Shown piece by piece: positions 11,679-52,963 of a DNA stretch of 60,533 nt. This DNA is from a virus. The stretch spans positions 1 to 60,533 of the IMG/VR virus record IMGVR_UViG_3300021959_009735. One strand, 5' to 3'. Both the position numbers and the translations under genes were made by a program. The notes beneath the pieces are model-generated. The model did not search any database and was not told where the DNA came from. It saw only the letters and a program-made list of their open reading frames with translations. Positions within the stretch are counted from its first letter, which is position 1. Each line of letters starts with the position of its first letter.

Positions 11679-11730
11679 CTAATTAAAGTCTAGTTAAACT
11701 GCGGTAAAACTATCAACCAGAACTACATAC

Positions 11731-11738
11731 ATAAATAG
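11731..11738 (-). promoter_or_regulatory. Partial CTATTTAT promoter-like element
   Basis: An eight-base coding-strand match (CTATTTAT followed by G) lies in the 72-base gap upstream of the CMP-sugar synthetase gene, about 52 bases before its ATG. It fits the position of a promoter that re-starts transcription inside the glycan island. Confidence 0.35.
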
Positions 11739-11750
11739 AGTAAGGTCTAT

Positions 11751-12470: not shown

Positions 12471-12478
12471 GTAGTTCT

Positions 12479-14247: not shown

Positions 14248-14249
14248 AA

Positions 14250-15125
14250 CTACCCCCTCAGCTTTTTCCTTACTGGCAGTTCTGATTCTGTTACTTTAAT
14301 TTCTCCGTCTCCTAATGCTAGTTCAAGTTCTCTAACTCCTTTTACTAGCTTAATCAGTCCTTGAGGTTCGACCGATGATAAGTGATCACTTCCCCACATC
14401 GTACGGTCCAATGTGATATGCCTTTCGAGAATAGTGGCTCCCAAATAGACTGCTGCAACTGTTGTACCAAGTCTAAACTCATGACCAGAGTACCCTACCT
14501 CACATTTATAACGGTCTGCCAAGGTCATGATAGCCGCTAGGTTTAGCTCTTCAATTGGAGCTGGGTAGGTTGAGTTAGTGTGTAGCAGTGCATAAGAGGT
14601 AAGCTCTACTCCCTGGTCAAATCTGTACTTGTTCAGAACCTCTACAGCATGATCGATCTCCTCTACCGTGCTCATGCCGGTACTAAGAATTACTGTCTTA
14701 CCCTCTGCCCTTGCCGATGCCTTTAGTAGCTCATCATTGGTGAGCATAGCAGAAGGAATCTTAATAAACGGAATATCGTACTGTAGAAGAAACTCCAGCG
14801 AATCTAAATCCCAGGGTGAAGCCGACCATGCAATACCTTTTTCCTTACAGTAGCCATCGATTTCATCATACTCTTCTTTGCCGAATTCTACTCGGTACTT
14901 GTACTCCAGATAGGTCATTTCCCCCCAAGGAGTATCTCGCATTACGTTTTTCTGGTGCTCGGGTACGCAGACGTCTGGGTTTCTTTTCTGAAATTTTACT
15001 GCATTACATCCCGATAGAGCAGCAATGTCAATTAGCCGTTTAGCAATATCTAAATCGCCGTTGTGGTTGATGCCGATCTCGGCAATAATGTAAGTACCCT
15101 TCACTTCTTTTCCGTTGATGTACAT
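14250..15125 (-). CDS. Sialic-acid-type synthase (NeuB/SpsE family) lacking the SAF domain
   Basis: NeuB enzymes condense an N-acylhexosamine (or its 6-phosphate) with phosphoenolpyruvate to form a nine-carbon sugar. The TIM-barrel signatures are all visible: IIAEIGINHNGD at the start, KFQKRNPD, LSTGMSTVEEI, LLHTNSTYP and GYSGHE, then LERHITLDRTMWGSDH. At 291 residues the protein ends where the C-terminal SAF/antifreeze-like domain (about 60 residues) would start, so it is a SAF-less form. Epimerase genes for the precursor are not adjacent; the precursor may come from the host. Confidence 0.9.
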   Translation of the reverse strand: MYINGKEVKGTYIIAEIGINHNGDLDIAKRLIDIAALSGCNAVKFQKRNPDVCVPEHQKNVMRDTPWGEMTYLEYKYRVEFGKEEYDEIDGYCKEKGIAWSASPWDLDSLEFLLQYDIPFIKIPSAMLTNDELLKASARAEGKTVILSTGMSTVEEIDHAVEVLNKYRFDQGVELTSYALLHTNSTYPAPIEELNLAAIMTLADRYKCEVGYSGHEFRLGTTVAAVYLGATILERHITLDRTMWGSDHLSSVEPQGLIKLVKGVRELELALGDGEIKVTESELPVRKKLRG

Positions 15126-15493
15126 TATAGTTCTTCGATTCGTTTAGCTTTATCGTCGATTACTAGATCAAAATGGGGCTTTGGATTAGGAGATGTTCCA
15201 GTAATAAGTTCATGAAACTTAGCTCCCCAACGGTAGAGTTGTTCTCTAGTATGTTCTGTATAATCTACTTTAGATACAGCACCTCTAGCGGTCCAGTATA
15301 CAATTCTCCACCCTTCATCGTATAGTTTATTAATCTTATTAATGTTTTGATAGTTAGGCTCTGATAGATCATATCTACGGTCGCCTGAGTAGAAGCAGAT
15401 AGTCTCATCGATATCTACTAAGGCTGTTCTAACTTCACCTGGATCGGAGAATCTTTTAGCGGTCTTGAATTCTAAATCTTTAGAGGCTGTCAT
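15125..15493 (-). CDS. Small HAD-superfamily phosphatase
   Basis: Residues 24-33 read LVDIDETICF, the HAD motif I with nucleophile Asp and the +2 Asp. WTARG (about 70-74) is motif II, and the C-terminal KPHFDLVIDDKA supplies the Lys of motif III and the acidic pair of motif IV. The 122-residue size without a cap domain resembles the capsule/lipopolysaccharide phosphatases. Placed directly before the NeuB-like synthase (1-base overlap), it may dephosphorylate a nonulosonate phosphate. Confidence 0.8.
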   Translation of the reverse strand: MTASKDLEFKTAKRFSDPGEVRTALVDIDETICFYSGDRRYDLSEPNYQNINKINKLYDEGWRIVYWTARGAVSKVDYTEHTREQLYRWGAKFHELITGTSPNPKPHFDLVIDDKAKRIEEL

Positions 15494-16115
15494 ATAATTT
15501 ATTCTGCTTTTCTTGACGTTCTATAGTCTTAGGATGCCTTAGGGAATAATCTTCTACTGCCGGTAACTGAGCTGTTGTTTTAAATCCTGTAATACGTTCA
15601 TGTACCTTTCCGGTCCATTCAATACCTTCTCTGTTCCGGTAAATACGTCCTTGCCAGTCTGGCCAATTGATAAATCCAAACTCATTGACGTGCCATCTCC
15701 ATTTTGCAATATGCTCATCTGTAATTCCTTCTACTGTATTTACTCGAGGTACCCAGTAAAGATCTACTTCTTGATTCATTTCTAATAGAGAAGGAAGCAT
15801 TACCATTAAGCTTGGTGATACTTTCTCGTCAGCATCTATCTGAAAGATATAATCTTTAGAGCAGTATGCATTAAGTTTATTCTTCCATTGGGCAAAATCG
15901 CCATCGAAGAACCCTCTCCAGATATGAAAGTTAGGAAATTTATTTAAGGGTTGCAACTCCTCAAAGAGTTCTTCATCTCCGTTTTTAAGATCAAAGAGTA
16001 CAACTATCTCATCGTGAGGTCTTTTATTTTCTCTTAAGAACCCAACCAGGCTTCTTATCTCTTCTCTCTCGTTGCAGACTGTTATCGCAAACGATATGGA
16101 AGGTGCCTTGCTCAT
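15480..16115 (-). CDS. Family 2 glycosyltransferase, short form
   Basis: The protein opens with SFAITVCNEREEIRSLVGFL, the GT2 nucleotide-sugar strand. YIFQIDADEKVSPSLM carries the DxD-type DAD. Then YWVPRVNTVEG and a WRWHVNEFGF aromatic stretch follow. At 211 residues it is close to the minimal GT-A core, similar to WaaE/KdtX-like glucosyltransferases. It overlaps the HAD phosphatase gene by 14 bases. Confidence 0.85.
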   Translation of the reverse strand: MSKAPSISFAITVCNEREEIRSLVGFLRENKRPHDEIVVLFDLKNGDEELFEELQPLNKFPNFHIWRGFFDGDFAQWKNKLNAYCSKDYIFQIDADEKVSPSLMVMLPSLLEMNQEVDLYWVPRVNTVEGITDEHIAKWRWHVNEFGFINWPDWQGRIYRNREGIEWTGKVHERITGFKTTAQLPAVEDYSLRHPKTIERQEKQNKLYDSL

Positions 16116-16549
16116 AATACAAAAAATTCAATTACATCCAAAGCATCCATAAAACTATACTGGTCAAAATACTGGATATTTTTCATATCCATCTTATGCG
16201 TCTGTTCCTCTGGGAACTTGGTTTTATCTTCTTCTAAAATTGGAACAGCTTTTGCGGCTGCCCATCTCCAGGCATTGGCATCTGTACCGTCCAAAAAAAC
16301 CATTCCCTTCTCTGGGACTGTCATTGTTGCCGGGTACCATACTTTAGTTTCTTCGTCTACAAACTTTAAGTCTTTGTAAAGTTCTGGCAGGTCCTCGGCA
16401 GTATTCTTAGCTAAGTCGCTTCCTTCTACCATGAGAGTAGAGGTGGAGAAGCCGCATGTAAAGCACATCCACGTCTTTGTAGTTTGATCAATCTCTTGCT
16501 GATAGCAGGCATTGCTACCGCATCTTGCACAATCGGTTAACTTATCCAT
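16112..16549 (-). CDS. Zinc-ribbon protein, 145 aa
   Basis: CARCGSNAC at residues 7-15 and CFTCGFST at 29-36 form a four-Cys zinc ribbon. The remainder is an acidic, tryptophan-containing domain with no catalytic motif. Small zinc-ribbon proteins of this build occur in T4-like phages of marine bacteria, where their job is unknown. It overlaps both neighbours by a few bases within the glycan operon. Confidence 0.7.
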   Translation of the reverse strand: MDKLTDCARCGSNACYQQEIDQTTKTWMCFTCGFSTSTLMVEGSDLAKNTAEDLPELYKDLKFVDEETKVWYPATMTVPEKGMVFLDGTDANAWRWAAAKAVPILEEDKTKFPEEQTHKMDMKNIQYFDQYSFMDALDVIEFFVL

Positions 16550-17832
16550 TAATCTAATTTTTCTAGTTTTGGAAGCTGAAGGGATGGTAATTTGAGCTCA
16601 ATCTGCTTTGGAAACTCAGGAAGCTTTTCATCAAGTAGAATTCCAATCTCTTCCTTCATTGCCTGCAGGGAAAACTTTTTACTATTCTGTCTACCTAGAA
16701 TGTGAGAGCTCTTGAGGTAGTCTTTATACTTCTTAGCAACCTGTTTATAAACTGTACCAACCTGCGCATCGTCAGGCCTAAACCATTTAGCTTCTTTAAG
16801 GATAAGGTTGGGTAAGGTAGCTGTTGTATGAACATTATCTAATGTGCCTCCTACGAGAATACTAAGATCCGAGGGAAGAAAATCTAGATGTCCTGACCAT
16901 CCGGAGGCGATAACTGGCTTACCTGTAGCAACCCCGAACTCAAGTAAAGGTCTACCAAATCCTTCTCCCTTGGTAAAGCTTACAAGAGCTTTAATTTTAC
17001 GATGGTTATACAGCTGGTTTATTTCCTCATCGTAAAGCTCGCCATGGAGTAGGTATACGTTAGGTAGATTTCCCTTAACCGATCGTTTTATCTCTTCAAT
17101 CTTATTTAATACTGATTCTTGATCCTGAATTGAGCTACCTCCTTTTTGTACTTTAAGTAACAAGGCAGGAGCATTACGTCTGTTTTTGAAAGTTTCTAAA
17201 AACGTCTTAAGAGTATATCCAATATTTTTTCTATCTTCTCCTACTTTTCCCTGCATCCAGTGACCTATTACAAGGTAAACGAAATTCTCTTTTATTGAAG
17301 TAAGATCAAAAGATTTTTCATCCATTTTAAGCTGTCGGTACTTTGTAAGATCAACTCCCTCAAAAATAACAGCGGTATCCGTAGCAAGTTTAAATTCTTT
17401 TACGACCTGATCTGTTCTTTTATCTTTCTGCTCAAATGCACTATTTTTAAGAACTTCTATAGAATGCTTGCTAGAACCGATTATTAAGTCCATTCTATTA
17501 CAGCCTTCGAGCCAAGATGGATCGCATAAAGTAGTTTCTATACCAGCAGTTAATCCAATATTATACTTTCCAACAGGTTGAAATTCGTTAGGTACAGTAT
17601 GCTGTATCCATACATCTGGCACGGCGGTAAGGTTAGGTACTATAAGAGAGGCTAGTTGATGTTCCTCATGATCTTTTAAGTACCCAAATCTGGTGTTTCC
17701 CCATCTCTGAGAGAGGATCTGAATATCAAATCTATCCAGAGCAATAAGTGCTTTAATAAAATCTCTGGCTCTTGCTCCATACCCGCTGTAGGTATCTACC
17801 GGGCAAGAGATTGCTAACGTATTTTTACTCAT
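16549..17832 (-). CDS. GT4-like (GT-B) glycosyltransferase
   Basis: The N-terminus (YSGYGARARDFIKALIAL) has the glycine-rich donor-domain start of GT4 retaining glycosyltransferases. The C-terminal half contains KALVSFTKGEGFGRPLLEFG, the EGFGxPxxE signature that binds the nucleotide sugar, then GKPVIASGWSGHLDFL. Its 427 residues are typical. It follows another GT4 protein with an 8-base overlap; the two may act in succession. Confidence 0.88.
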   Translation of the reverse strand: MSKNTLAISCPVDTYSGYGARARDFIKALIALDRFDIQILSQRWGNTRFGYLKDHEEHQLASLIVPNLTAVPDVWIQHTVPNEFQPVGKYNIGLTAGIETTLCDPSWLEGCNRMDLIIGSSKHSIEVLKNSAFEQKDKRTDQVVKEFKLATDTAVIFEGVDLTKYRQLKMDEKSFDLTSIKENFVYLVIGHWMQGKVGEDRKNIGYTLKTFLETFKNRRNAPALLLKVQKGGSSIQDQESVLNKIEEIKRSVKGNLPNVYLLHGELYDEEINQLYNHRKIKALVSFTKGEGFGRPLLEFGVATGKPVIASGWSGHLDFLPSDLSILVGGTLDNVHTTATLPNLILKEAKWFRPDDAQVGTVYKQVAKKYKDYLKSSHILGRQNSKKFSLQAMKEEIGILLDEKLPEFPKQIELKLPSLQLPKLEKLD

Positions 17833-19288
17833 AACTATAGGTGTAGTCGATCAATTTGTGCTTAACATAGTTTACAGGACGAGGTCCGGTTTCAATGAGC
17901 TCATAAGAGTTTCTTGGAGTAAAGTTCTCGAACGCTTTGTCACAGCATTCAATTACCCTGTTAGCCATATTTTGAGCAGACATGTTTGACTCCTTTGATA
18001 GAACCCATTCTCTCCCTTTCAGACCCCTGCGCTCTCTTTCTTCCGGTCCTAATTCATATACCCATTTAAGGGCTGCTGCAACGTCTTCGGGCGAACATCT
18101 GTCGTCGTAGATGTACGGAGTAGCAGGAGATCCAGCAATACTAAGATTTGACGGAAATACTGCTGCTGCCCATTCGCCGCATTTGGTAAACGTTCTTCTA
18201 TGATTAGATGGGAAGTTAGCATCGAAGTCAATCCACTTTCCGTTATTATCTTCAAAGCGAGCCTGATCCTGCATACCGCCTGTAACGTTGAGAAGAATCA
18301 TCTTACCGGCCATCATAGACTCTGTAAGAGACAGTCCCCAGCCTTCATTTGACGAAATCAACATCGTAACATCTGCCACGTTATATAAAAGATTCATCTG
18401 AGCTGTCTGAAGAGGATCAGCAGAGAAGTATACGTTTACGTAGCTTGGATCACATAATGCTTCTTTTACTGCGTGAAGATCGGTTCCGTTATTATCCGAA
18501 GGTTGAGTATGCATAATGAGAGCACACTTCTTAGCCTTCTCTTCTCCAATCATATCGCAGAACATACGATAAGAGAGAACCACATCGGCAGGACGTTTGC
18601 GGTGAATGTTCCGAGAGTTCCAAAAAACTACAAAATCAATCTCTTTTCCTTTAAATAAGTCTTTTTTAAAGTCTTTGAACTTATCGAACGCTTCGTAATT
18701 CTCGTCGATCGGAAAGAAAAAATCTTCGTTGATTCCGTGAGGAACATATTCAATGATCTTATCCTCGGCATAGTCTCCTAAAACTAATTCATTAATGTTT
18801 TTAGTTTGCTTGGAGATAGCCATCAAAAGATCTACCGAACGATAGTACCCTCTATTATAAAGTGGTGATGGATAATCATCCCAAATGTTTAGGTAGAAGA
18901 TTGGAATCTTAGTTCTAATCTCTCTTTCCATGTCGAAGAGCCAGGACCAGTAGCGAGGGTCTGTAAAGATTAGAATCGCATCCGGCTTCTCTTCCTTGAG
19001 AAGCTTGCGAACCAACATAGAATCCCCATACCCGGTGTTGCCAAGAACTTTAACGGACGCGTCATTTATACCAGTAATATTGTTTACTTCGTCGGAAATG
19101 TCAAATCCTTTGCCGTGATCTGGATGCTTTACGGCACCTCCAACGTTTAGCCAGTTAAAGTGGTGGGCAGATCCTACCACAATCTCTCTAGCCATAGTTG
19201 CGACTCCGGAATGCATCCGAATATCATCGCATAGAAGCAGAATCTTTTTTCTATCCTTCTGCTCTAGATAGCGAAACTTATCTTTCAT
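17825..19288 (-). CDS. GT4-like (GT-B) glycosyltransferase, 487 aa
   Basis: A Rossmann N-domain (KKILLLCDDIRMHSGVATMA) is followed by a nucleotide-sugar C-domain with SSNEGWGLSLTESMMAGKM, the EGxGLxxxE type motif of GT4 enzymes. The middle carries WNSRNIHRKRP, a typical GT-B hinge strand. As the first enzyme gene of the island it starts about 5 bases after the small ribbon-helix-helix gene ends, so the regulator and enzyme share a transcript. Confidence 0.88.
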   Translation of the reverse strand: MKDKFRYLEQKDRKKILLLCDDIRMHSGVATMAREIVVGSAHHFNWLNVGGAVKHPDHGKGFDISDEVNNITGINDASVKVLGNTGYGDSMLVRKLLKEEKPDAILIFTDPRYWSWLFDMEREIRTKIPIFYLNIWDDYPSPLYNRGYYRSVDLLMAISKQTKNINELVLGDYAEDKIIEYVPHGINEDFFFPIDENYEAFDKFKDFKKDLFKGKEIDFVVFWNSRNIHRKRPADVVLSYRMFCDMIGEEKAKKCALIMHTQPSDNNGTDLHAVKEALCDPSYVNVYFSADPLQTAQMNLLYNVADVTMLISSNEGWGLSLTESMMAGKMILLNVTGGMQDQARFEDNNGKWIDFDANFPSNHRRTFTKCGEWAAAVFPSNLSIAGSPATPYIYDDRCSPEDVAAALKWVYELGPEERERRGLKGREWVLSKESNMSAQNMANRVIECCDKAFENFTPRNSYELIETGPRPVNYVKHKLIDYTYSYE

Positions 19289-21847: not shown

Positions 21848-22102
21848 TTAGGCTGCGTCTGTTTTTTCTGCTTCTTCAACAGGCTTTTTGGCGATAGAGA
21901 ATTTCTCTACGGCTGAGAATCCTAAGCCTGCTGCTACGAGGTAGAGCATACCATTATAAACGAACTCTTCTAAAGGAAGTGCAAAGAAGAGGTTAGCAAC
22001 AAATGCTACAAAGCATAGAGCTGCTGCAACTAGCGTAACTGTTCTTTTGGAGGATGCCTGTCCGTGGACGTCGGAAAGCATTTTATTGAGCCATTTTTTC
22101 AT
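21848..22102 (-). CDS. Two-helix membrane protein, holin-like
   Basis: This 84-residue protein has two hydrophobic helices (about residues 22-40 and 48-66), a short basic N-terminus (MKKWLNKML) and an Ala/Glu/Lys-rich C-terminus. It lies directly after the amidase gene and ends in a strong terminator, which is the usual place for a second lysis gene. It could be a holin or an antiholin; the sequence does not decide. Confidence 0.65.
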   Translation of the reverse strand: MKKWLNKMLSDVHGQASSKRTVTLVAAALCFVAFVANLFFALPLEEFVYNGMLYLVAAGLGFSAVEKFSIAKKPVEEAEKTDAA

Positions 22103-22118: not shown

Positions 22119-22610
22119 TTATTCGCTAAGTGCTTTTACAAAAGCATCCCAGTCGAAGGCTGCTCCTGGGTCTGTTTTGCCTTTTCCTGCGCCTCTAACA
22201 TCATCTCCAGATACATCCGAGTGTCTTACTACTCTTTCTACAGGAATGTTGTACTCCTTCATCCACCATTTGCATACCTCTACAGCACAGTCGAACTGGG
22301 CTTGGGTGTATGTGCCAGGTGTCTCGATTGCTTTGGAGAATGTTCCGAAGTCATGTTCTCCGGGGACTAGTAGTTCGAATCCTAAGTAATGGCCGTTGAG
22401 CAATTCTAATCCCATATGAGCACTCTTTCCGGCATGAGCTGCCTTCTGAGTTGATTCAAGCATCTTGTCATACTTTCCATCTGGGGTGATAAATCCATGA
22501 ACGGAAAGCTTAACGGATTTGAGAAAATCTTTGGCCGGCTTAGGACCTTCTGGCAGCTTTAGAAACTCTGCCATAGAGTGAACGATTATACCTTTCGGTG
22601 TAAATGCCAT
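22119..22610 (-). CDS. N-acetylmuramoyl-L-alanine amidase (endolysin)
   Basis: The Amidase_2 fold is indicated by GIIVHSMAEF (first zinc His), AAHAGKS (a second His), and VVRHSDVSGDDVRGAGKGKTDPG (third His with the conserved DPG). These three residues coordinate zinc in T7 lysozyme-like and PGRP-type amidases. The 163 residues are enough for the catalytic domain alone, with no cell-wall-binding module. It would cut the bond between muramic acid and the stem peptide at lysis. Membrane genes on both sides form a lysis cassette. Confidence 0.9.
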   Translation of the reverse strand: MAFTPKGIIVHSMAEFLKLPEGPKPAKDFLKSVKLSVHGFITPDGKYDKMLESTQKAAHAGKSAHMGLELLNGHYLGFELLVPGEHDFGTFSKAIETPGTYTQAQFDCAVEVCKWWMKEYNIPVERVVRHSDVSGDDVRGAGKGKTDPGAAFDWDAFVKALSE

Positions 22611-22637: not shown

Positions 22638-23018
22638 TTAATCTTCGTCAGCACATGAGCAATGGTAAGGTGTTCCGCAATCATCACAGAATTTGCTCAT
22701 AGGTACTGGTTCTTCTACAACTTCTTCTAAGTCGTCTACTCCATCTACATCGTCGACGGCTTCTAGAAGTTTATTATCTCTTTCGGCGCTATTGAACCAG
22801 TAGTCAATAACTCTGTTATAGGAGCCAATGAAAGCACCAAGTACAAGTAGGAGTATTTCTTTCCACTCCTGAGCCATTCCTGCCATTGTATCAACGGGTC
22901 CAAGAAGAGCCCAGCCAATTCCTAAAACGATAACAAGAAAGGTTAACATGGTGAGCAATGTAATGCTCATTCTTCCTCTTTGCATCTTATTATAAATGTG
23001 TAATATGTTTTTGTCCAT
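22638..23018 (-). CDS. Holin-type membrane protein with C-terminal zinc knuckle
   Basis: Two hydrophobic helices (about residues 18-42 and 55-72) with the sequence LVLGAFIGSYNRVIDYWF match the 3-TM/GTA-type phage holins. Residues 82-102 are an acidic Asp/Glu/Val run, and the C-terminus has CDDCGTPYHCSC, an unusual zinc-binding knuckle not expected in a holin. It starts the amidase cassette; a CTATTTATA element lies 31 bases upstream of its ATG. Confidence 0.7.
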   Translation of the reverse strand: MDKNILHIYNKMQRGRMSITLLTMLTFLVIVLGIGWALLGPVDTMAGMAQEWKEILLLVLGAFIGSYNRVIDYWFNSAERDNKLLEAVDDVDGVDDLEEVVEEPVPMSKFCDDCGTPYHCSCADED

Positions 23019-23135: not shown

Positions 23136-23387
23136 TTAAGCTGTAAATTCCTGTGTGCTAGGTTCTTGAATCTCTCGTGGAAGAAATTCTTTATTAACGT
23201 GATTGCACTTCAGGCAGGCAAAGACTGGAATTGGAATGTAGGATGGCATTCCGGTTCCGGTTACGAAGCCGGATGCTTTACGGATGTAGATTCCCTGCTG
23301 GAAATATTGATGTCCGCATTCATCGCATGTAGTCTCATCTGTCTGATCCAGGCTGATGTTGACTTGTGGTTGTTTATTAAATTCCAT
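23136..23387 (-). CDS. Zinc-knuckle protein, 83 aa
   Basis: TTCDECGHQYF (residues about 20-30) and FACLKCNHVNKEF (about 56-68) form a four-Cys zinc ribbon. Proteins of this build occur in T4-like marine phages but have no known function. Its start overlaps the stop of the preceding histone-like gene by one base. The C-terminus is short and acidic. Confidence 0.7.
   Translation of the reverse strand: MEFNKQPQVNISLDQTDETTCDECGHQYFQQGIYIRKASGFVTGTGMPSYIPIPVFACLKCNHVNKEFLPREIQEPSTQEFTA

Positions 23388-25506: not shown

Positions 25507-25507
<1 letters not shown>
25268..25507 (-). CDS. Small Smr-domain protein
   Basis: The 79-residue protein matches an Smr (small MutS-related) domain. LDLHGL-type start EIDLHGLTHEEAIKAVEDWL is the family's N-terminal motif, and KIITGNSPELQKKIFEEVL is its second conserved helix-strand. 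The usual TGxG motif is present only as TGNS. Smr domains nick branched DNA or bind RNA. It starts 1 base before the GroEL stop and is likely co-transcribed. Confidence 0.75.
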
Positions 25508-27435
<1,928 letters not shown>

Positions 27436-43436: not shown

Positions 43437-43606
43437 ACTAATTCCTCCCAAATTCCTACTAACTCGCTTAGTACTAGTACACCGGCACCGATAACTAAAT
43501 CAAACGGAAGGAGGACGTATGCAACAATCCTCACTCCCGATTTGATAAAGCTAACAATCTGGTGCCATTTCTGATTCGGCATTTTCTCCAGATTCTTATC
43601 CTGCAT
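43433..43606 (-). CDS. 57-residue membrane peptide in the queC-thyX overlap
   Basis: From ATG 43606 (11 bases inside queC) the frame reads MQDKNLEKMPNQKWHQIVSF, then IKSGVRIVAYVLLPFDLVIG and AGVLVLSELVGIWEELV. One hydrophobic helix carries the middle. Its TGA overlaps the thyX ATG. An internal ATG 8 codons downstream is an alternative start. The order and overlaps suggest that translation of thyX depends on it. Confidence 0.75.
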   Translation of the reverse strand: MQDKNLEKMPNQKWHQIVSFIKSGVRIVAYVLLPFDLVIGAGVLVLSELVGIWEELV

Positions 43607-44474
43607 ATCCTGCTAGCACCTCCTCTGCATGAGCTTTGGCTACTTCCCAAGAGACCGGACCAGTTTCGTCTTCGTACTGTACCGGGTCTGGGCGTCCAAG
43701 TTTAATAAAAGCTTCGATGCGTTCTACCGAAGAAGCCGACTTATAGTCAGAGTTTCCGGATGGGAACGGCTTATAGGAAGTGTTAGTCAGAGAATATACC
43801 GTATCGAAATCTAATCCAAGATTTTCACAGCATGCTAGACCATCTTCCAGAATGGTAAACTTATCTCCATCAAGGTAGGGAGTAGAATACGTTACCTTGT
43901 CTGAATCCCAGTTTCCGACCAGGAAGGCTTCGTAATCTGCATCTCTAAACTCTTGACGGCAGTCTGGATAGATTGCATGGTCTCCGGCATGAATACCGAG
44001 TGCGATTTCAACCGGACAATCCCATTCGTTTGCAATCGAAAGAGCTACGGACTGGATGATAGAAGAGAAGATCTTATTCCGGTTCGGTACAACCGTTGCC
44101 TTCATATTGTCTTCGGCGTAATGCCCTTCAGGTACATCTTCTCCGCCAGAGACTAGATTAGAATTTAAAAGATCAGATAGCCCATCCAGCTTGATAATCT
44201 GATGCTTAATTGGATAGAACATTCTCTTACCGGGATTCTGCTCTAATGCATGTCCATTCAGGTAACGTACAAGATCGGAAGCTCGGTTTAGTTCTACTCT
44301 ATGTTTCTGTCCGTAATCAAAGGATAGGGCTGTTACGTCATATCCTGCGTTAAGGAGGTGTAAGAGTAGGGTGGAGGAGTCCATCCCTCCGCTAAGACTT
44401 AGTACTGCTTTTTTTGGAAATAAATCGGCTTGCATTTGTTTAACCGTTGGTGAGTCAGTATTGTGATATTGCAT
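43596..44474 (-). CDS. queC: QueC-like 7-cyano-7-deazaguanine synthase
   Basis: QueC converts 7-carboxy-7-deazaguanine to preQ0 using ATP and ammonia. The PP-loop SGGMDSSTLLLHL (residues 28-40), ALSFDYGQKHRVEL and IALGIHAGDHAIYPDCR support the family. The C-terminal CxxC zinc set (usual SCYxG...CGxCxxC) is missing; instead the end reads SLTNTSYKPFP and KSASSVERIEAF. The zinc-free C-terminus is an unusual feature that may be compensated. The gene lies between the 57-residue peptide and thioredoxin. Confidence 0.85.
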   Translation of the reverse strand: MQYHNTDSPTVKQMQADLFPKKAVLSLSGGMDSSTLLLHLLNAGYDVTALSFDYGQKHRVELNRASDLVRYLNGHALEQNPGKRMFYPIKHQIIKLDGLSDLLNSNLVSGGEDVPEGHYAEDNMKATVVPNRNKIFSSIIQSVALSIANEWDCPVEIALGIHAGDHAIYPDCRQEFRDADYEAFLVGNWDSDKVTYSTPYLDGDKFTILEDGLACCENLGLDFDTVYSLTNTSYKPFPSGNSDYKSASSVERIEAFIKLGRPDPVQYEDETGPVSWEVAKAHAEEVLAGYAG

Positions 44475-44781: not shown

Positions 44782-45486
44782 TTATTCTCTTATTCCGATG
44801 AATGTGTATGTGGCTCCGACTCCCAAGAGAGGGGCAAAGCCGTCTAAGGTGTAACCATATCCTCCGAATAAGCCTAGACCTAGACGAGGTTTTTTAGCAC
44901 GGTGTGCATTTTTAATATTGTAGGGCGGTCCTTGAATATCTGTGATCCGAACGTTAGGGTACATCGAGAATACCCCTACCTTGAGGGTATGATCTGTAAT
45001 ATTGATATCTGTAGCAACGTTTAGGTTCACACTTGCTTCAGAAAACTCGAAATCAAAGTCTTTCGGAACATCTAAATCGTAATCCCACCTAAATTTTGTA
45101 ATTCCTTTAACTCGAAGTGCTCCTTGACGATCCGTATCTACAAGCGTGAATGGAATTTCATGAAACTTATCTGCATCCGCTCCACCAACCGTAACCCGGA
45201 CTGTGTCTCGAACAATGACAGTATCTCGTTTAACGACTACTTTAGGGGGTAGGTAAACTACTCTAGGCTTTTTTAAGCTGAGTTCATTATACCTCAGTTC
45301 GGCTACGACCAGAGAATCTTCTAACTCTACGACATAATCTTCAAAAAGCCTTTCGACCTCTTTAGCTTCGTCAAGTTGAGCGTTCAAGTCGGTGATTTCT
45401 GTATTTCGATCTTGAATAGTAGTATAGGCGTAGAACGGTATAACTATTAATGCAATACCTAGAATAAACGCTGCAAATTTTTTCAT
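44782..45486 (-). CDS. Membrane-anchored coiled-coil/barrel protein (DUF6808-like)
   Basis: An N-terminal helix (residues 3-21), a coiled coil (NTEITDLNAQLDEAKEVERL) and a DTVIVRDTVRVT repeat are followed by beta strands ending at GVGATYTFIGIRE. The design, membrane anchor plus periplasmic rod plus barrel-like end, is shared with the 195-residue gene at 32.5-33.1 kb; the two look like diverged relatives. An envelope-bridging (spanin-like) role is possible; it is not established. Confidence 0.5.
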   Translation of the reverse strand: MKKFAAFILGIALIVIPFYAYTTIQDRNTEITDLNAQLDEAKEVERLFEDYVVELEDSLVVAELRYNELSLKKPRVVYLPPKVVVKRDTVIVRDTVRVTVGGADADKFHEIPFTLVDTDRQGALRVKGITKFRWDYDLDVPKDFDFEFSEASVNLNVATDINITDHTLKVGVFSMYPNVRITDIQGPPYNIKNAHRAKKPRLGLGLFGGYGYTLDGFAPLLGVGATYTFIGIRE

Positions 45487-45490
45487 AACC

Positions 45491-45958
45491 TTAGAATATC
45501 AGTTTATCTACTTCTGTAAAACTTTCGTCTACCGTTTTCTTAATTAAGTTTAGAAGGATTGAGTTTGCAAAATCTTCCTCACTCTCTATCATAGAGTAGA
45601 AATTAGACCTTACAGATTTGGTAATCAAGGACCGCTGGTTTAAATTTTGTGTAAAATCATTCTTATGATCTACAAAAGTTATCTCCATGGTAAGAGCTAC
45701 GTCTTCGTTCCTTGCTTTAAATATAGCAAAAGAAAGTCCGGTATCAAACCGTTCGTAGGAAATAAATTTTGGATATACATGAACATCAGCCTCAGAAGGA
45801 TCGCTTACAATGCGTACGTTAGGAATATCTTGAACGTATTCTTCTAGAAGTATCTGGGTAGTTCTAGATACTAGAGCGTTACTGAAGATTGCTTCATCAC
45901 TTTCATTGGTTGCAGGATGAACAAAGATAGAAATTATAGAGAGAAGGATAGCTAACAT
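45491..45958 (-). CDS. LptE-like secreted protein (tentative)
   Basis: After a hydrophobic N-terminus (MLAILLSIISIFVHPATN) the order of segments (FSNALVSRTTQILLEEY, then NVRIVSDPSEADVHVYPKFI, SYERF, and a final LIKKTVDESF) resembles the Bacteroidota LptE/LPS-assembly lipoproteins: a helix, an edge strand and a C-terminal helix. There is no obvious lipobox. It lies in an operon with a CsgG-like lipoprotein and a beta barrel, so a chaperone for outer-membrane assembly is the best guess. Confidence 0.4.
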   Translation of the reverse strand: MLAILLSIISIFVHPATNESDEAIFSNALVSRTTQILLEEYVQDIPNVRIVSDPSEADVHVYPKFISYERFDTGLSFAIFKARNEDVALTMEITFVDHKNDFTQNLNQRSLITKSVRSNFYSMIESEEDFANSILLNLIKKTVDESFTEVDKLIF

Positions 45959-46893
45959 TAGAATAAGTATTTAGCTCCCAGTAGAACACCCGGAGATGTA
46001 AATTCTCTACTATCTGTGCGGTAGTTTATACTGGCAGCAAGGTTTAAGCCAAAGGTTGGTGATAACTTCCATGTAAACGATAGGTTTGGATTTACCTTAA
46101 CATGATCTTCAAACCAGTAACTTAACTTAAAAACCTTCACATAATAAATATAAGATAGAACTAGTGTAGAATTGATTGAAAAGTATGGATTTGAATACAG
46201 TTTATTAGACACGCCTACAATAAGAGACGTGTCCTGAAACCTGTAGTTATTCAAGATCCCAAAAGTAACTGAGTTAAATGCAAAGCCGCTCAGCTTTCTA
46301 GTCTTGTAGTATACGCCGTTAAACAAATTACCTAGAAAATCACCCTCAATATACAGGCCTCCAAAGCTTTCTACTCGATTCCACTTCTCATTTAGCGGCT
46401 TCATTCTATAATACCCTAGAGCCGACTTCTGACTATTTCCAAAACTGGATAAAGCTCCGTACTTAAGACCTGTTTTGAGATTTTGAGTAGAGTATCCAGA
46501 ACCAGCTCTAAACTCTGATGGAGAGAAGTAAGCTAAATCTGAGCTTAGTACTAGAAGAGGTGCTCCGAGTTCAACTTCTCCTGAATCAGCAATTCTTTTT
46601 GACGAAGAGGTTACTAACTCCTGTATTTCTGCACACGGGTAGTATTCATTCCAAAGCCTATTAACTTTATCCATCCAAGCAATATACGTACCGTCTTGCA
46701 TTTCAAATCTGTTGAACGTCTCCGATTCACCAAAAAAGAAAACAGTAAAGGTGTCGTTTTTCTGCGACACCTCTACCTGAACAGTTCGATTCTGCTCAGT
46801 ACAAATTTCTCTGTACCTGTACTTAAAAAAGGTCTGTCCGCTGGACGGACTACTCCATAGGACCAGTAATATAACAGTTAGAAGAAACCGCAT
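45958..46893 (-). CDS. Outer-membrane beta-barrel protein
   Basis: A signal peptide (MRFLLTVILLVLWSSPSSGQ) is followed by alternating short beta strands with aromatic residues and a final strand ending in Phe (GVLLGAKYLF), the C-terminal recognition signature for BAM-assembled barrels. Six Tyr/Trp-rich hairpins are visible between residues 150 and 311. I do not recognise a specific porin or transporter. It overlaps the LptE-like gene's start by one base. Confidence 0.7.
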   Translation of the reverse strand: MRFLLTVILLVLWSSPSSGQTFFKYRYREICTEQNRTVQVEVSQKNDTFTVFFFGESETFNRFEMQDGTYIAWMDKVNRLWNEYYPCAEIQELVTSSSKRIADSGEVELGAPLLVLSSDLAYFSPSEFRAGSGYSTQNLKTGLKYGALSSFGNSQKSALGYYRMKPLNEKWNRVESFGGLYIEGDFLGNLFNGVYYKTRKLSGFAFNSVTFGILNNYRFQDTSLIVGVSNKLYSNPYFSINSTLVLSYIYYVKVFKLSYWFEDHVKVNPNLSFTWKLSPTFGLNLAASINYRTDSREFTSPGVLLGAKYLF

Positions 46894-46898
46894 TCATT

Positions 46899-47585
46899 TT
46901 ACAACCAGCCTCTTCTCTGAGCTCTTCTTATAAGATTTACCGTTGCTGTCTCTAAAGACTTCTGGGTAGCCATACCTACGGTGGATTGGTCAAACTTCAT
47001 ATCCGGGTTGGTTAAGAAGCCTGTACCTTTCTGGGTAGATTGTCCCAGGCCAGAAGCAACAATGTATTCTCCATTTTCTACGCTAACGAGTCTGATCTGA
47101 AAGCCAACGTTTGTCGTGTTGGTAACTTCAGAGCTTAATCTCTCTACAGATTCGTTTGTAGAAGTGGAGAACTCATAAAGCTCAGCATATACGAAGAATT
47201 TAGGAAGTACGAGAGCACCGGTTTTGAGTTCGGTACCTGCAGCACCGATTCCGGCATCCGAAAGATCCCATTGATCGAGCATCTTGTTTAAGATTTCTTC
47301 TTTTTCTTCTGTATATCTGAAGAAGCCAGTCTCTTCGAAGTTTTCAAGAATACGGTTTGTAAGTCCAAGTCCGACTCTCTTCTCAGCTAGAGCTGGGTAC
47401 TGATCTACGATCTCTTTTGTTACAGAAATGTTCATCACCTGAATCGGTGTTCTTTCTCCTGTATTGTAGTCTAGATCATAGATCGACTGCTGTTTTTCGT
47501 AATCTGCTTGATAATCTTCAACCTGCACTGTAGAAGCACAGCCTGTTAATAGAAACGGAATTAAGAGTAAAATAAGTTTTTTCAT
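46899..47585 (-). CDS. CsgG-like outer-membrane lipoprotein
   Basis: I start at MKKLILLLIPFLLTGCAST, a lipoprotein signal with lipobox LTGC. The body resembles CsgG, the curli secretion pore: IQVMNISVTKEIVDQYPALA, GLTNRILENFEETGFF, LVLPKFFVYAELYEF and VGFQIRLVSVENGEYI, and ends GMATQKSLETATVNLIRRAQ. CsgG oligomerises into a nine-subunit channel. In the host group the CsgG fold occurs in curli-like systems; the phage copy lies next to other envelope genes but without a CsgA-type subunit. Confidence 0.65.
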   Translation of the reverse strand: MKKLILLLIPFLLTGCASTVQVEDYQADYEKQQSIYDLDYNTGERTPIQVMNISVTKEIVDQYPALAEKRVGLGLTNRILENFEETGFFRYTEEKEEILNKMLDQWDLSDAGIGAAGTELKTGALVLPKFFVYAELYEFSTSTNESVERLSSEVTNTTNVGFQIRLVSVENGEYIVASGLGQSTQKGTGFLTNPDMKFDQSTVGMATQKSLETATVNLIRRAQRRGWL

Positions 47586-47589
47586 AGGT

Positions 47590-47937
47590 TTAGTTCTTTT
47601 TTCTACGTGCAAGTAATCTATCTTTAGCCGAAGGAGGTGGAGCTGGTTCTTCAACTACCTCTTCCTTCTTTTCTTCTTTAGCAGGCACCTCTACTACTCT
47701 CTCACGAATAATCTGAGGAGGTGGAGCTGTCTGGGTCTGAGTATTATTATTTTCGATTACGATTGTTGGCATAACGGGCTGTTGTACTACCTGTTCGGTT
47801 TGAGCAGGTTCGTCACCGCCGCCAATAAGGTTCTCAAACTGCGTAACGACTACGCCGCCGGCTGCCGTCAAAACAGTTGCAAGAACCCCAATTACGGTTT
47901 TTTTGAGGTCACTTCCTCCGTTTTCTTCTTCGCTCAT
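47590..47937 (-). CDS. Membrane protein with proline-rich (TonB-like) region
   Basis: Residues 12-33 are a hydrophobic helix (TVIGVLATVLTAAGGVVVTQ), followed by a Pro/Gln/Thr-rich stretch (QTQTAPPPQIIRERVVEVPA, then EEKKEEVVEEPAPPPSAKD) and a basic C-terminus (RLLARRKKN). The design resembles a TonB-like or spanin-like bridge across the periplasm, but no C-terminal TonB domain is present. Sits between the T9SS protein and the CsgG-like gene. Confidence 0.6.
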   Translation of the reverse strand: MSEEENGGSDLKKTVIGVLATVLTAAGGVVVTQFENLIGGGDEPAQTEQVVQQPVMPTIVIENNNTQTQTAPPPQIIRERVVEVPAKEEKKEEVVEEPAPPPSAKDRLLARRKKN

Positions 47938-47941
47938 TTTT

Positions 47942-49891
47942 CTATTTGATTAAGTGAATTGGTTGTGTGCTAACTGTTGAACCGGCAACCAGTCTAACAA
48001 AGTAAGTTCCGCTTACAAGATTGTCTGCGTCTAATCTTATTCTGTAGACATTTCCGGCCATAACAATACTATCGTAGAGAGTTTTCACTTCTCTACCCAT
48101 GATATCATAAACCTTTACTGTAGCATATTCCGTATTTCCAGCCTCAATCTCTACCGTAGTAGTTGGATTGAATGGGTTCGGGTAGACACTACTAATTTTT
48201 ATGCCCTCTGGAAGGGTATCGTCTCTTTCTGCATTCACGCCTGAAGCATTATTATTTGCAATAAAGACGGCTCCGTTTGCAGAAACCGGGATGTCGTCTC
48301 CGTTAATATCTCCCGCTGTGTTCTTAGATCCGAACTCTAGGGCAGACTGTTGGTCATTTCCTGCAAGTACCTGAAAGTATAATCTAATTAGAATTAAATC
48401 GTCGTTTGTAATAATAGGGAAGTTTCCGCCGCTACCATCCATCCCGCCGTAATCCAAAAATCCGTCACCAGGATTGAAATAAAGCATCCATGAGTTAGAT
48501 AAGACGGGGGAGTCCGCCGACAGGAAAGTTAGAATATCTTTGTCGTACTCTAGTCTTAATCCGAATGAGCTAATATTCTGCTCTTTGGTATTAAAGTAAA
48601 CTGGTACCTCGACAACTGCACCGGGAGCAGCTTCTGTATTAGGAACAAATACGGTAATACTATCCCCGTTAGCAAACATCGAGTTGCTCGAAGAACGCTT
48701 ACCTCCTCCTGGAACCGAACCTCCTAGAGAAGTCTGGTTAACGTCTCCGAGAATGACTGTGTAGAAATCCTCCGTCATATCGCTCTGTCCGTTGTAATTG
48801 GCTAGAACGTATGTCCAGTTTGTCCCCTGAGGTTCGAATCCAAGAGGTCCAACCCCAAGAGCTGTGGTAGTTGTAGAGTCTGAGTCTAGGACGTATTTAA
48901 CTGTTTCCGGTTTTACGATCATAAGATCTCTATATCCGCCCTGGCCTAGAGTAGACCAGTTGGTAAACCTGTTTGCATGATATGCATAGTTTGTATATGC
49001 ATCGGCGATCGTAGATGTATGCGAGTGGTTAACGTCAGAGGCAAGAAGCTGTGTGGACGTGTACGTTGTTTTACCGTTTGCATATAGAAGCTGTTTGTAT
49101 GAGTCTGTTGTTGAGAGAGCATTATCAGAATCGATGTCTTCTGTCTTAAATATAAAAGAGAACTCCGTAGTTCCGTCTACAAAGTAACCGTAGTAGTACT
49201 CATAGTATACCATCTCATAATATCCGGAAGTGTTTGTCTTAGTTGGATTACCTCCTAAAACTGTAGTAATATACGTACTTCCTTTATAAAGCTGATATTC
49301 TAAGTTTGTAATACCTTTTTCGGTAGCAATATCTTTAACGTATCCGTAATACTTTCTATGAGGAATATTGACAGCTCCGCCGTGAGATGTAGATCCAATT
49401 GAGATGTCGGCTCCTTGGGCGTTGGACCCAACAGGAGAGTAGGTACCAAAAGAAAAAGCCGTTATGTTAGCTTCATTACTGTACAGGAGGCTATTATGAA
49501 TATTCTTGAATCTTAAACGAACGATAGAGGTATCCGGGAAGGATGTCGTGGTTGAAGCTCCTGTATATACTACACTGACAAGGACCTCATCGTTTGTGGT
49601 ATCGTCGTTGTATGAAATTGTATAGCTTGATCCTATAAGATTTTCAACTTCGTATACGTTTTCAAAAGTATCTCCATCATACGAAATCTTAAACTGAACC
49701 GAGGTAACGTATCCGGTGTATGCCGAACCGTCAAAATAAACTTCTACTTTTGTAGTATCGTTGAACGGAGATGTATCGTATTCATCCGTTAGAACGACCC
49801 ATGGCTTACTCTGGCCGTTTCCTGAGGTTTGAGCGAGTGCTCCAAGTGGTCCTAGGGTAAGCAGTAGGACAAGGGATAAAAATTTTTTCAC
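47942..49891 (-). CDS. T9SS-secreted surface protein with cohesin-like domain
   Basis: The 649-residue protein, started by GTG, has a signal peptide (about 1-21), a beta-rich N-half, two EF-hand-like segments (DIDSDNALSTTDSYKQLLY and SDVNHSHTSTIADAYTNYAY), a cohesin-like domain (about residues 420-540: SITVFVPNTEAAPGAVVEVP, then GLRLEYDKDILTF), and a C-terminal T9SS type A sorting domain (about 568-649: YPNPFNPTTTVEIE, VKVYDIMGREV, ending SGTYFVRLVAG). Such a domain needs the host's Por/T9SS machinery for export to the cell surface. Rare for a phage. Confidence 0.85.
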   Translation of the reverse strand: MKKFLSLVLLLTLGPLGALAQTSGNGQSKPWVVLTDEYDTSPFNDTTKVEVYFDGSAYTGYVTSVQFKISYDGDTFENVYEVENLIGSSYTISYNDDTTNDEVLVSVVYTGASTTTSFPDTSIVRLRFKNIHNSLLYSNEANITAFSFGTYSPVGSNAQGADISIGSTSHGGAVNIPHRKYYGYVKDIATEKGITNLEYQLYKGSTYITTVLGGNPTKTNTSGYYEMVYYEYYYGYFVDGTTEFSFIFKTEDIDSDNALSTTDSYKQLLYANGKTTYTSTQLLASDVNHSHTSTIADAYTNYAYHANRFTNWSTLGQGGYRDLMIVKPETVKYVLDSDSTTTTALGVGPLGFEPQGTNWTYVLANYNGQSDMTEDFYTVILGDVNQTSLGGSVPGGGKRSSSNSMFANGDSITVFVPNTEAAPGAVVEVPVYFNTKEQNISSFGLRLEYDKDILTFLSADSPVLSNSWMLYFNPGDGFLDYGGMDGSGGNFPIITNDDLILIRLYFQVLAGNDQQSALEFGSKNTAGDINGDDIPVSANGAVFIANNNASGVNAERDDTLPEGIKISSVYPNPFNPTTTVEIEAGNTEYATVKVYDIMGREVKTLYDSIVMAGNVYRIRLDADNLVSGTYFVRLVAGSTVSTQPIHLIK

Positions 49892-49989: not shown

Positions 49990-51714
49990 TTAGTTTTCTC
50001 TCCTTTCATGTCCTTCGTAGTACTGTATTCTATCATGTTTGATAGGCGAAGCTAGTAGTACTCCTCCTTTAATCTTTTTTCTAAACGTTTCTTGAAAGAT
50101 ATGGGACATCCAGGTCTGTTCAAACGGATGATCGAATCTAGTATCGATAAACATTTTTCTGTTACCCTCCTTAGACACAATCACAGGCCAGTTACAATAG
50201 TATACTTCTCCAACTGCATATCCAAGTCCTTCGTAATTCTCTATCCGATCAAACTTAGTTCTAGGAGCGTTTGGATCTGCGCCTGCTTCTGGTAGCTTGT
50301 CGTAATCTGGCCATATCAGGCTTCTAATGTTTTGAGGTACGTTATACCAACTGGTCTGGATGTTATTATCCCAGAAAAGTTCCGTAAATGACAATTTGAG
50401 AAAATCTAATCCTTCTTTTTCTATAATCGTATGAGCCTTACTGAATAGGTCTTCGATAAACATTCTGAATCCCATTCTGCAGAATTTCCCGCTTTGGTCT
50501 ATACCGTTTACTGTCATATCGTCTTCAAAGAAGATCATATAATCAGCATCTGATTCGTTGAAATGATCTGCGGCGATTTGCCTGCCTCCACATATTCCCG
50601 TATTCTTTTCCTGCCCAAGGTACGTAAATCCTCTCGTTTTGCATATCTTCTCATTAGTTCTCTTAGCGTCTACTTCGTTAGAATTATCTATCACGTAAAC
50701 ATTGGATTTTTCGATCCAATCGGGAGTTTTGTCGAACGACTCTAAGACATGTTCTAGCTGTTCGGGAAAGTTGAACGTTAGTATGTAGGTACTTGTTTTA
50801 AGGTTGGTAAGGCTTTTTCTCTTTTTTGCGTACCTTTTACCAGTAGTCTCTATCTCGTGGTCTGAATCTCCTCTGTTTATTCCCTCTTTGGTAGCAACTG
50901 CAAGCCCGTTCTTTACATTTTCAAAAAAAGTAGATAAAAGGCCATTTTGGTCTATATCAAAATAATCAACCGTCGAACTATGTCGATAAACTAGTATAGA
51001 GAAAATAGATTCCTCCGTACCCATTAATCCTTCACTTAGAGATCTATTAAGATATCCATAGTAGAGATTATTTATTTCCTCTACCGTGTCTTTAGGGCCT
51101 CCAAAAAATCCTCCTCTGGCTACTCTTTTGACAGTTGCTCCAGCATACTCATTTAACTTATCGTACTCAAAACCATGTACCTCTTTATTAGCCTCGTACG
51201 GAAAACAAATGAAGGAAAACTTAGAGACTATGCTTGGTATTTTTTCAAGAACTTTATCGTGGGTAAAATACCCCGGATGCACTGTATTCGCTATACCGGC
51301 GTCAATCCAAAATAGGTACTCTGAGTTGAACTTTTCTAGAATTCTAGCATCGTTAAGAAGAAACATTTTCGACATAACAACCGGATTGTACATATCCAGT
51401 TGTGCCTGGGTTGAGTCTGGAAGCCAGGAAGCTTGATTATACCATTTAGGATCTGTTCTAATTTTTTGAATTCGGTCGTAGAAAGATTCCTTAAACCAGT
51501 CGAGTTTTCTGAGTATGAACTGAGTATTGTGGGGTACTCTTCTCTCTTCTACAAAACTCTTTAGGTGCTCATCTCCAAATATAATAAAATTACAATCTGT
51601 CTCTAGAAGCGAACTTAGACGGTTATAATACTGGTTACGAGAGCGTGCCCAATCTTTCGATAACTCACCTCTACCAATATCCCAAAAACCTGTTACCAGT
51701 GTAACTTTACTCAT
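49990..51714 (-). CDS. Two-domain glycosyltransferase (HtrL/YibB-like plus GT2)
   Basis: Residues 1-280 resemble HtrL/YibB: VTLVTGFWDIGRGELSKDWA, YLFWIDAGIANTV, and LMGTEESIFSIL. Residues about 300-574 are a GT2 domain: STYILTFNFPEQLEHVLESF, a IDNSNEVDAKR region and YMIFFEDDMTVNG, whose EDD fits the DxD site. The two domains may add sugars in sequence. The gene ends an operon of three glycosyltransferases. Confidence 0.8.
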   Translation of the reverse strand: MSKVTLVTGFWDIGRGELSKDWARSRNQYYNRLSSLLETDCNFIIFGDEHLKSFVEERRVPHNTQFILRKLDWFKESFYDRIQKIRTDPKWYNQASWLPDSTQAQLDMYNPVVMSKMFLLNDARILEKFNSEYLFWIDAGIANTVHPGYFTHDKVLEKIPSIVSKFSFICFPYEANKEVHGFEYDKLNEYAGATVKRVARGGFFGGPKDTVEEINNLYYGYLNRSLSEGLMGTEESIFSILVYRHSSTVDYFDIDQNGLLSTFFENVKNGLAVATKEGINRGDSDHEIETTGKRYAKKRKSLTNLKTSTYILTFNFPEQLEHVLESFDKTPDWIEKSNVYVIDNSNEVDAKRTNEKICKTRGFTYLGQEKNTGICGGRQIAADHFNESDADYMIFFEDDMTVNGIDQSGKFCRMGFRMFIEDLFSKAHTIIEKEGLDFLKLSFTELFWDNNIQTSWYNVPQNIRSLIWPDYDKLPEAGADPNAPRTKFDRIENYEGLGYAVGEVYYCNWPVIVSKEGNRKMFIDTRFDHPFEQTWMSHIFQETFRKKIKGGVLLASPIKHDRIQYYEGHERREN

Positions 51715-52963
51715 CGACGTTTACTTTGATAGATACAACTTCTCTTTTGCCCCACCCTTTAGATTTACTATGAGGCCACACAACCCAGCGGTCAGGAAGT
51801 TCACCTATGAACTCTCTGTAAATTGTGACGAACTCTCCAGATTTTTTAAGTAATCTGTTAATTTCTTTTTCATCAGCATCTTTTCGATATATGGGTGTGC
51901 CGTCTTCTTTTTCGAAAACGACTGCCCAGAAATCATAGTCATCCTCCGGAAAGATACTTTTATGGACATCTAAATAGTGGGCAAACCTCTTAAGGAAAGA
52001 TGCATCGTATTCCTCTTCTGTTTCAAACGTAGGGTTAGGTGGATATTCGAACTCAAGAGTATGTTGCTGGACGCTTCGGTCTTTGAATCTTATCCCAGCA
52101 TATCTTTCGTAATCCTGTATAGTTCGGTCTGTTCCGAGACCATACTTTTCTAGAGGAATAGGAGTACCTGTATCAACTCCTAAAAGTTCTCTCATTTTTT
52201 TATGGGTAGCTTTATTTTTTTCTACCCATTCATTATCGTCCCAGTGCTTAGTTCTACCTTCTCTGGTGTATTCATGCCAGGCAATAATCTTATGTGGATG
52301 GTAGATATCGTATCCGTGCGTATACGATCTAAGCGCTAGAGAAATTTCCTCGCCGTGGAAGTAGTATTCAGGATCATGAGGCACTTCTCTGCAATGAGTT
52401 CCGGATGTAAACGTAAAATGAGCTGAGTAAAATCTCCCAGGAACAGGCTTATCTATTTCGTCCCACTCTTCAATAGTGCCAGGTCTGAAAAATACTACCC
52501 CTTCTGGGGTAAATCTATCGAAATGCATCTTCCAAGGATGTTCGGATCTTCCTAGAGGGTCATTTTTAGGATCGTAAGAAGGGATATAGGCAGTAAGAAG
52601 TGGTTTTTCAACACCATCTTTTCGTAGACCTTCGTACATATTAATTAATTCAGTATCCCAACCTTGGATAAATCTATGGTGAGAATCCAGCTGTAGAGTG
52701 TATTTCTGACCTCTGTACTGCTGTTGAATTAAATTGCGGGCCCAGCAGGCACCCTCTGATTCAGAGTAGGGAATATCTAAAATAATCACTCTTTCATCAT
52801 TAACATATTCATCTAACGTATCCCATTTGTCGTCAGAAGAGTGCTGCCAGGCCACGCAAACTTTAAGATTGTCAGGTTTATCTGCTTTCTCAAACAGATC
52901 TTTTAGAGTTGGCCTGAGTTCAGGGTCTCTATAACTGGCAATCTGTACAAATATTTTACTCAT
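51707..52963 (-). CDS. GlcNAc-transferase-like glycosyltransferase (PF11397 type)
   Basis: IFVQIASYRDPELRPTLKDL is the start signature of the GlcNAc family. Then YTLQLDSHHRFIQGWD with a metal-binding DSH replaces the DxD, HCREVPHDPEYYFHGEEISL and DIYHPHKIIAWHEYTR complete the conserved blocks. In eukaryotic parasites this family modifies proteins (Skp1). Here it would add GlcNAc or a related sugar to a phage or host protein or glycan. The length (418) is normal. Confidence 0.8.
   Translation of the reverse strand: MSKIFVQIASYRDPELRPTLKDLFEKADKPDNLKVCVAWQHSSDDKWDTLDEYVNDERVIILDIPYSESEGACWARNLIQQQYRGQKYTLQLDSHHRFIQGWDTELINMYEGLRKDGVEKPLLTAYIPSYDPKNDPLGRSEHPWKMHFDRFTPEGVVFFRPGTIEEWDEIDKPVPGRFYSAHFTFTSGTHCREVPHDPEYYFHGEEISLALRSYTHGYDIYHPHKIIAWHEYTREGRTKHWDDNEWVEKNKATHKKMRELLGVDTGTPIPLEKYGLGTDRTIQDYERYAGIRFKDRSVQQHTLEFEYPPNPTFETEEEYDASFLKRFAHYLDVHKSIFPEDDYDFWAVVFEKEDGTPIYRKDADEKEINRLLKKSGEFVTIYREFIGELPDRWVVWPHSKSKGWGKREVVSIKVNVDE

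Follow-up and report, generated by a model that had tools for sequence, protein, structure and literature searches.

The closest described systems are the curli (type VIII secretion system, T8SS) modules of pelagiphages and of the OM43 phage Melnitz, which have the makeup CsgF-CsgG-CsgA/B-FecR-adenylate cyclase (PMC7029224, PMC9599517, PMC9004378) and whose CsgG has been linked, by proposal, to lysis control, aggregation and uptake (PMC9004378, PMC9599517, PMC7029224). In Melnitz, a lysis role has been proposed for CsgGF (PMC9004378). Little is known of how phages of Bacteroidota-type bacteria cross the outer membrane. Two-component spanins have not been recognised in Bacteroidetes phages (PMC12596118), which leaves room for another outer-membrane step, and cultured flavophages include some whose glycoside hydrolase family 19 (GH19) endolysins have membrane proteins nearby (PMC8776804). 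Here we analyse a five-gene envelope module in a linear viral contig of 60,533 nucleotides (IMG/VR record IMGVR_UViG_3300021959_009735, positions 1 to 60,533; hereafter the window), and compare it with its homologues in uncultivated phages and in the cultured Flavobacterium phage vB_FspM_immuto (NC_055915; hereafter immuto). Our favoured reading, to which we assign a probability of roughly 0.42, is that it is a late, lysis-linked trans-envelope module encoded by the phage and acting on the outer membrane and cell surface.

In the window, six tightly packed, consecutive minus-strand open reading frames (ORFs) run from 49891 to 44782. The initial annotation had treated all six as one operon, and the packing agrees with this, but the membership does not: five of the genes constitute a strict module, comprising the cohesin protein with its type IX secretion system (T9SS) signal, a transmembrane (TM) protein, a CsgG-fold protein, a barrel and a small CsgG-fold protein. 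The sixth, described there as a membrane rod, does encode a TM/coiled-coil protein with a C-terminal DUF6808 domain; it is excluded from the module because it was seen only in the window's own population and is absent from all other module loci. The six features, with the evidence for each, are as follows.

47942..49891, minus strand: SURF/COH, exported protein with cohesin and T9SS sorting domains (Pfam/NCBIfam above cut-off; tblastn to immuto gp14/gp15; family profile E 5e-110).
47590..47937, minus strand: TM, inner-membrane protein with periplasmic linker (TM scan; immuto gp16, E 8e-8; alignment of relatives).
46899..47585, minus strand: CSGG, CsgG-fold envelope protein with lipobox LTGC (41% identity to immuto gp17; AlphaFold2 (AF2) and Foldseek, CsgG 4uv2, E 4e-9).
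45958..46893, minus strand: BAR, N-terminal domain and outer-membrane barrel (family profile E 2e-70; AF2 and Foldseek; alignment).
45491..45958, minus strand: LPTE-like, smaller, second CsgG-fold protein (family profile E 2e-4; hhalign to the CSGG family 97.7%, E 2e-12).
44782..45486, minus strand: DUF6808 TM/coiled-coil protein, downstream neighbour (Pfam DUF6808, E 1e-6).

Pfam, PHROGs and NCBIfam assigned no function to the TM, barrel or small CsgG-fold protein of the window, and a promoter scan scored no better than shuffled sequences.

The same gene order is found in immuto, where gp14/15 (cohesin and T9SS), gp16 (TM), gp17 (CsgG-like), gp18 (barrel) and gp19 (small CsgG-fold) are followed, as in the window, by genes for thioredoxin and QueC. 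Single-sequence scans with the CsgG-like protein or the barrel recovered only the window's own population, and tblastn gave no credible match in cultured phages for the barrel, small CsgG-fold and DUF6808 proteins. A two-sequence CsgG-like profile built from the window and immuto found 106 relatives in IMG/VR, while the small CsgG-fold protein and the TM protein, used as seeds, yielded 203 and 414 (the latter with a profile of the closer subset of the TM alignment, the full alignment having no conserved blocks). Cohesion was assessed on the best 80 matches of each seed scan, so that the sets lean towards closer relatives, and a locus was counted only if it was distinct and its flanks were complete. 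Both the CsgG-like protein and the barrel were present in 40/40 loci of the small CsgG-fold seed and 45/45 of the TM seed, and the surface protein in 39/40 and 45/45; the TM protein accompanied the former seed in 39/40 loci and the small CsgG-fold protein the latter in 44/45. The core stayed together in all 85 distinct loci recovered with two independent seeds, one or two loci lacking a single further member, which strongly supports the coherent envelope system proposed by the initial annotation; its genes keep company in other phages instead of being scattered. The CsgG-like gene turned up in only two contigs among 84,980 bacterial and archaeal genomes; each of the two is phage-like, with genes for holin-like, GH19 endolysin or tail-collar proteins; the module is thus essentially phage-borne. 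Relatives infect, or are binned with, Flavobacterium/Bacteroidetes. The earlier statement that nothing similar is standard in phages has to be given up, since the module is widespread in uncultivated phages (over a hundred IMG/VR contigs) and in one cultured phage group, and phage-borne CsgG is known from pelagiphages.

The purposes put forward in the initial annotation (superinfection exclusion, adhesion, altered host range or export) miss the most informative context of the module, which is its lysis genes. Many relatives encode holin-like proteins, a GH19 endolysin (with peptidoglycan-binding domain) or an amidase inside the module or adjoining it. Among these, hol138 is a Pfam phage holin and hol119 and hol87 are small membrane proteins; hol87 relatives adjoin the module, as do amidase relatives in loci L057, L059, L066, L068 and L071. 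The position of hol119 varies, falling before TM, in the TM/CsgG interval, in the CsgG/barrel interval or after the barrel, with orders such as TM-hol119-amidase-c38-CSGG-BAR and LPTE-SURF-lipoprotein-TM-hol119-hol87-CSGG-OMP-GH19 lysin. Because this reshuffling recurs within the same cluster, it points to a functional tie rather than to a single fixed order. When the loci were dereplicated at 90% CsgG identity (n=24), a putative endolysin lies within ~11 kb in 15 of the 24 loci and any lysis gene in 19, against ~10% expected by chance for an endolysin (one per 100-150 kb genome); the rough binomial probability of 5e-10 is indicative only, as the lineages are not independent. With hol119 as the seed, a CsgG-like gene was found in 47 of 80 loci; in most of the others hol119 either had an endolysin as its neighbour or had nothing else recognised within reach.

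Several small proteins were observed around these lysis genes. Some hol119 members (L085, L083, L084) end in a C-terminal Asp-rich repeat, VDEDGDGIMDGIDFDGDGKID, that looks calcium-binding and dockerin-like, together with a zinc-ribbon-like end. An 83-aa zinc-ribbon-like protein adjoins hol119 in the window (23136-23387, minus strand), and a similar 80-aa protein stands beside a small CsgG-fold gene in L086. Members of cluster c40 (L057, L065, L071, L047) combine a signal peptide, a coiled coil and a C-terminal TM segment, and resemble unimolecular spanins without a lipobox.

The surface protein carries a cohesin domain (residues 412-514; Pfam, E 8e-12) and a T9SS type A sorting domain (residues 569-643; Pfam 1e-9; TIGR04183 1e-10, above cut-off), in line with its earlier description as a T9SS-targeted cohesin-like protein; its hydrophobic N-terminus, with the C-terminal sorting domain, qualifies it as a predicted T9SS substrate. 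Across 23 representatives of its family, cohesin domains occur in 11, T9SS tails in 8 and C-type lectin domains in 5, and dockerin, PA14 and laminin-G domains are also found. In immuto the protein is split into gp14 and gp15 (tblastn), and some loci encode a further, separate lipoprotein, lipo121, between TM and the surface protein. At 34 loci a nearby gene specifies a secreted protein that bears an HExxH motif. It corresponds to cluster c7_151 (L006, L013, L031, L054 and others), a small exported protein beside the cohesin gene and often divergent from it, whose HExxH is invariant in 34/34 members; it is a module-linked candidate for a secreted metalloprotease, and was not found in the window.

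The TM protein has a single TM segment (residues 14-32) followed by a tail of ~80 residues, rich in P, Q and N and predicted to form a disordered periplasmic linker, which fits the proline-rich membrane bridge of the initial annotation. Its C-terminal Trp, kept in all sampled relatives and absent from the window copy, is a candidate docking motif on the strength of the alignment.

The CsgG assignment of the next protein comes from its predicted structure. The AF2 model is of moderate confidence (predicted local distance difference test, pLDDT, 75; 14-sequence alignment), and its top PDB match by Foldseek is Escherichia coli CsgG (4uv2; E 4e-9, TM-score ~0.5), with GNA1162, PelC and LptE ranking below. 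No Pfam family matched the window protein, two of 14 relatives matched Pfam CsgG (E 0.001, best 0.0012), a genome search with PF03783 was negative and the CsgG-like profile matched no PDB sequence, so that the fold is recognised by structure only; hhalign of the family against one pelagiphage CsgG aligned the N-terminal region only (Prob 6%). Hairpin 1 is of similar length and mixed hydrophobicity, while the hairpin 2 region is short, at 21-25 residues versus ~34 in pelagiphage CsgG. The description as a CsgG-like lipoprotein stands for the fold and, given its LTGC lipobox, for the window copy; most relatives have no clear lipobox and show AQ-type signal peptide ends instead.

The small protein at 45491-45958 was initially read as LptE-like. 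Its hhalign match to the family of CsgG-like proteins (97.7%, E 2e-12) makes it better described as a second CsgG-fold paralogue, so that the module holds two CsgG-fold proteins. We also considered and rejected the idea of an LptE partner of an LptD barrel, since the small protein belongs with the CsgG-like family and the barrel resembles 12-strand porins, not LptD. The outer-membrane barrel itself is upheld by a model of moderate confidence with 11-12 strands after the N-terminal domain, and by Foldseek matches to the 12-strand porins KdgM/NanC (E ~1e-5). A Cys pair is conserved in the N-terminal domain, and in relatives a low-complexity linker of up to ~250 residues separates this domain from the barrel.

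By their predicted locations the parts jointly span the inner membrane, periplasm, outer membrane and surface, and this, with the holin-like and endolysin genes that relatives carry within the module or beside it, is why we favour a lysis-stage role. The TM protein would sit in the inner membrane, its flexible linker crossing the periplasm to an assembly in the periplasm and outer membrane that two CsgG-fold proteins and the 12-strand barrel may form, the barrel bringing its own periplasmic domain and, in relatives, its linker. Cohesin and lectin proteins would be sent to the outer face by the host T9SS. Such a complex would be made late, beside holin and endolysin, and would weaken or open the outer membrane and attached surface layer once the wall has been cut, leading to virus release. 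We regard it as possible, though doubtful, that this amounts to an unrecognised lysis system of phages on T9SS-bearing bacteria, a machine that opens the outer membrane and surface layer and replaces spanins or adds to them. A simpler idea, that the module is the spanin, was dropped: in some relatives a separate coiled-coil, C-terminal-TM, unimolecular-spanin-like protein coexists with it, and the module is thus not simply the missing spanin.

That coexistence also counts against the lysis-linked reading, and so do several other observations. In the window the lysis genes are clustered 22 kb from the module, as follows.

22638..23018, minus strand: hol119, holin-like membrane protein (family profile E 6e-33; context in relatives).
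22119..22610, minus strand: N-acetylmuramoyl-L-alanine amidase endolysin (family profile E 1e-83; PHROG lysis families E 2e-16).
21848..22102, minus strand: hol87, small holin-like membrane protein (family profile E 2e-9).

Nor are the holin and endolysin genes adjacent to the module in immuto. PHROGs gave no confident holin match for hol119 or hol87, and they are called holins solely by their context and TM segments. Shared late transcription may be all that the nearness to lysis genes reflects, and we know of no lysis mechanism that needs T9SS-exported lectin or cohesin proteins.

These same surface proteins make display a serious rival, somewhat less probable than the lysis-linked reading. 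Here a T9SS-exported cohesin/lectin coat, held by the CsgG-fold/barrel complex, would promote adhesion ("sibling capture") or exclude competing phages, and the lysis genes would be mere late-operon neighbours. The T9SS tags and the cohesin, C-type lectin, PA14, laminin-G and dockerin domains are what such a coat would contain, like proposals exist for pelagiphage curli modules (PMC7029224, PMC9599517), and T9SS-tagged proteins have been reported in Cryophage (PMC7468147). Yet clumping was not seen with the CsgGF-bearing phage Melnitz (PMC9004378), and display leaves unexplained why holin and endolysin genes interleave with TM and CsgG in many orders. An improbable alternative is that the CsgG-fold ring and the barrel together make a passage through the outer membrane, comparable with those of curli and Fap, for a phage protein such as the second surface protein or the endolysin; CsgG is indeed the top structural match, and among its many porin matches the barrel has a weak one to the amyloid exporter FapF. 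The short second hairpin region of CSGG may speak against a channel; the lack of any CsgA/B/E/F-like Pfam match in the six window proteins or their immuto counterparts does so too, and T9SS tags are already present on the surface proteins. Some receptor-binding proteins can have lectin and cohesin domains, which would suit an ordinary virion or tail component, but we consider this very improbable: the export signals on the family's cohesin, CsgG-like, barrel and small CsgG-fold proteins and the T9SS tag led us to reject a virion identity, and the immuto module is set among nucleotide-metabolism genes, not structural ones. The probability left over from these four readings belongs to unlisted possibilities.

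Other genes of the window were noted in passing. Just upstream of the operon (49990-52963, minus strand) are genes for an HtrL/YibB-like and glycosyltransferase-2 fusion (574 aa) and for an N-acetylglucosamine-type glycosyltransferase (PF11397, E 2e-77); both are possibly surface glycan modifiers, and the other module loci do not have them. QueC, a 7-cyano-7-deazaguanine synthase (43596-44474, minus strand), is 64% identical to immuto gp28, and with a QueE-like gene close by in locus L002 it suggests a 7-deazaguanine DNA or tRNA modification pathway. A full-length GroEL-like chaperonin (544 aa; translation inspected) lies at 25507-27141 (minus strand), and a long gene run at 7017-19288 (minus strand) includes two glycosyltransferases (phrog_2170) as well as methyltransferases, a content suggestive of glycan or DNA modification.

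A literature search, with most subscription journals outside its coverage, found no published description of the module, and the CsgG-like family, its T9SS surface partners and their lysis context appear undescribed so far. The immuto set, gp15-gp19, has homologous proteins in the same order, annotated as hypothetical or cohesin only; it differs in its split surface protein, an extra lectin protein and the absence of the DUF6808 rod. As a conserved module across every envelope layer that travels with holin and endolysin genes, the system makes the question of outer-membrane passage testable in the cultured pair of immuto and Flavobacterium sp. LMO8.

With holin-endolysin-spanin cassettes the module shares the presence, in relatives, of holin-like and endolysin genes. 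Its TM protein is of i-spanin topology (N-in, periplasmic tail) and in the window adjoins the CSGG lipoprotein, which in topology and adjacency would fit a two-component (Rz/Rz1-like) spanin; on the other hand, the TM protein has no coiled coil, its outer-membrane and surface part is large and multi-protein, most CSGG relatives have no clear lipobox, unimolecular-spanin-like proteins are separate in some relatives and the window endolysin is 22 kb off. PelC, LptE and GNA1162 are CsgG-related lipoprotein folds, matched by the CSGG model below CsgG, but belong to other operon types, and no LptD- or PelB-type barrel was identified in the module. Like the modules of pelagiphages and Melnitz, the present one is a conserved set of several envelope genes, foreign to the host, in which the phage encodes an outer-membrane protein of the CsgG family; lysis or aggregation has been proposed as the role of both. 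Whereas the CsgG of pelagiphage HTVC008M is a true curli CsgG (E 1e-49 to PDB CsgG), the present family is recognised by fold only, and its module has a second CsgG-fold paralogue, a separate barrel, an inner-membrane linker protein, T9SS cohesin/lectin proteins and interleaved lysis genes in place of recognised CsgA/B/E/F. CsgG-family proteins in envelope modules have thus been taken up by phages of two distant host groups, which suggests a shared advantage in late outer-membrane alteration, and we see the module as a further form of the envelope modules in which phages carry CsgG-family proteins, and it stands a real chance of being a new lysis system.

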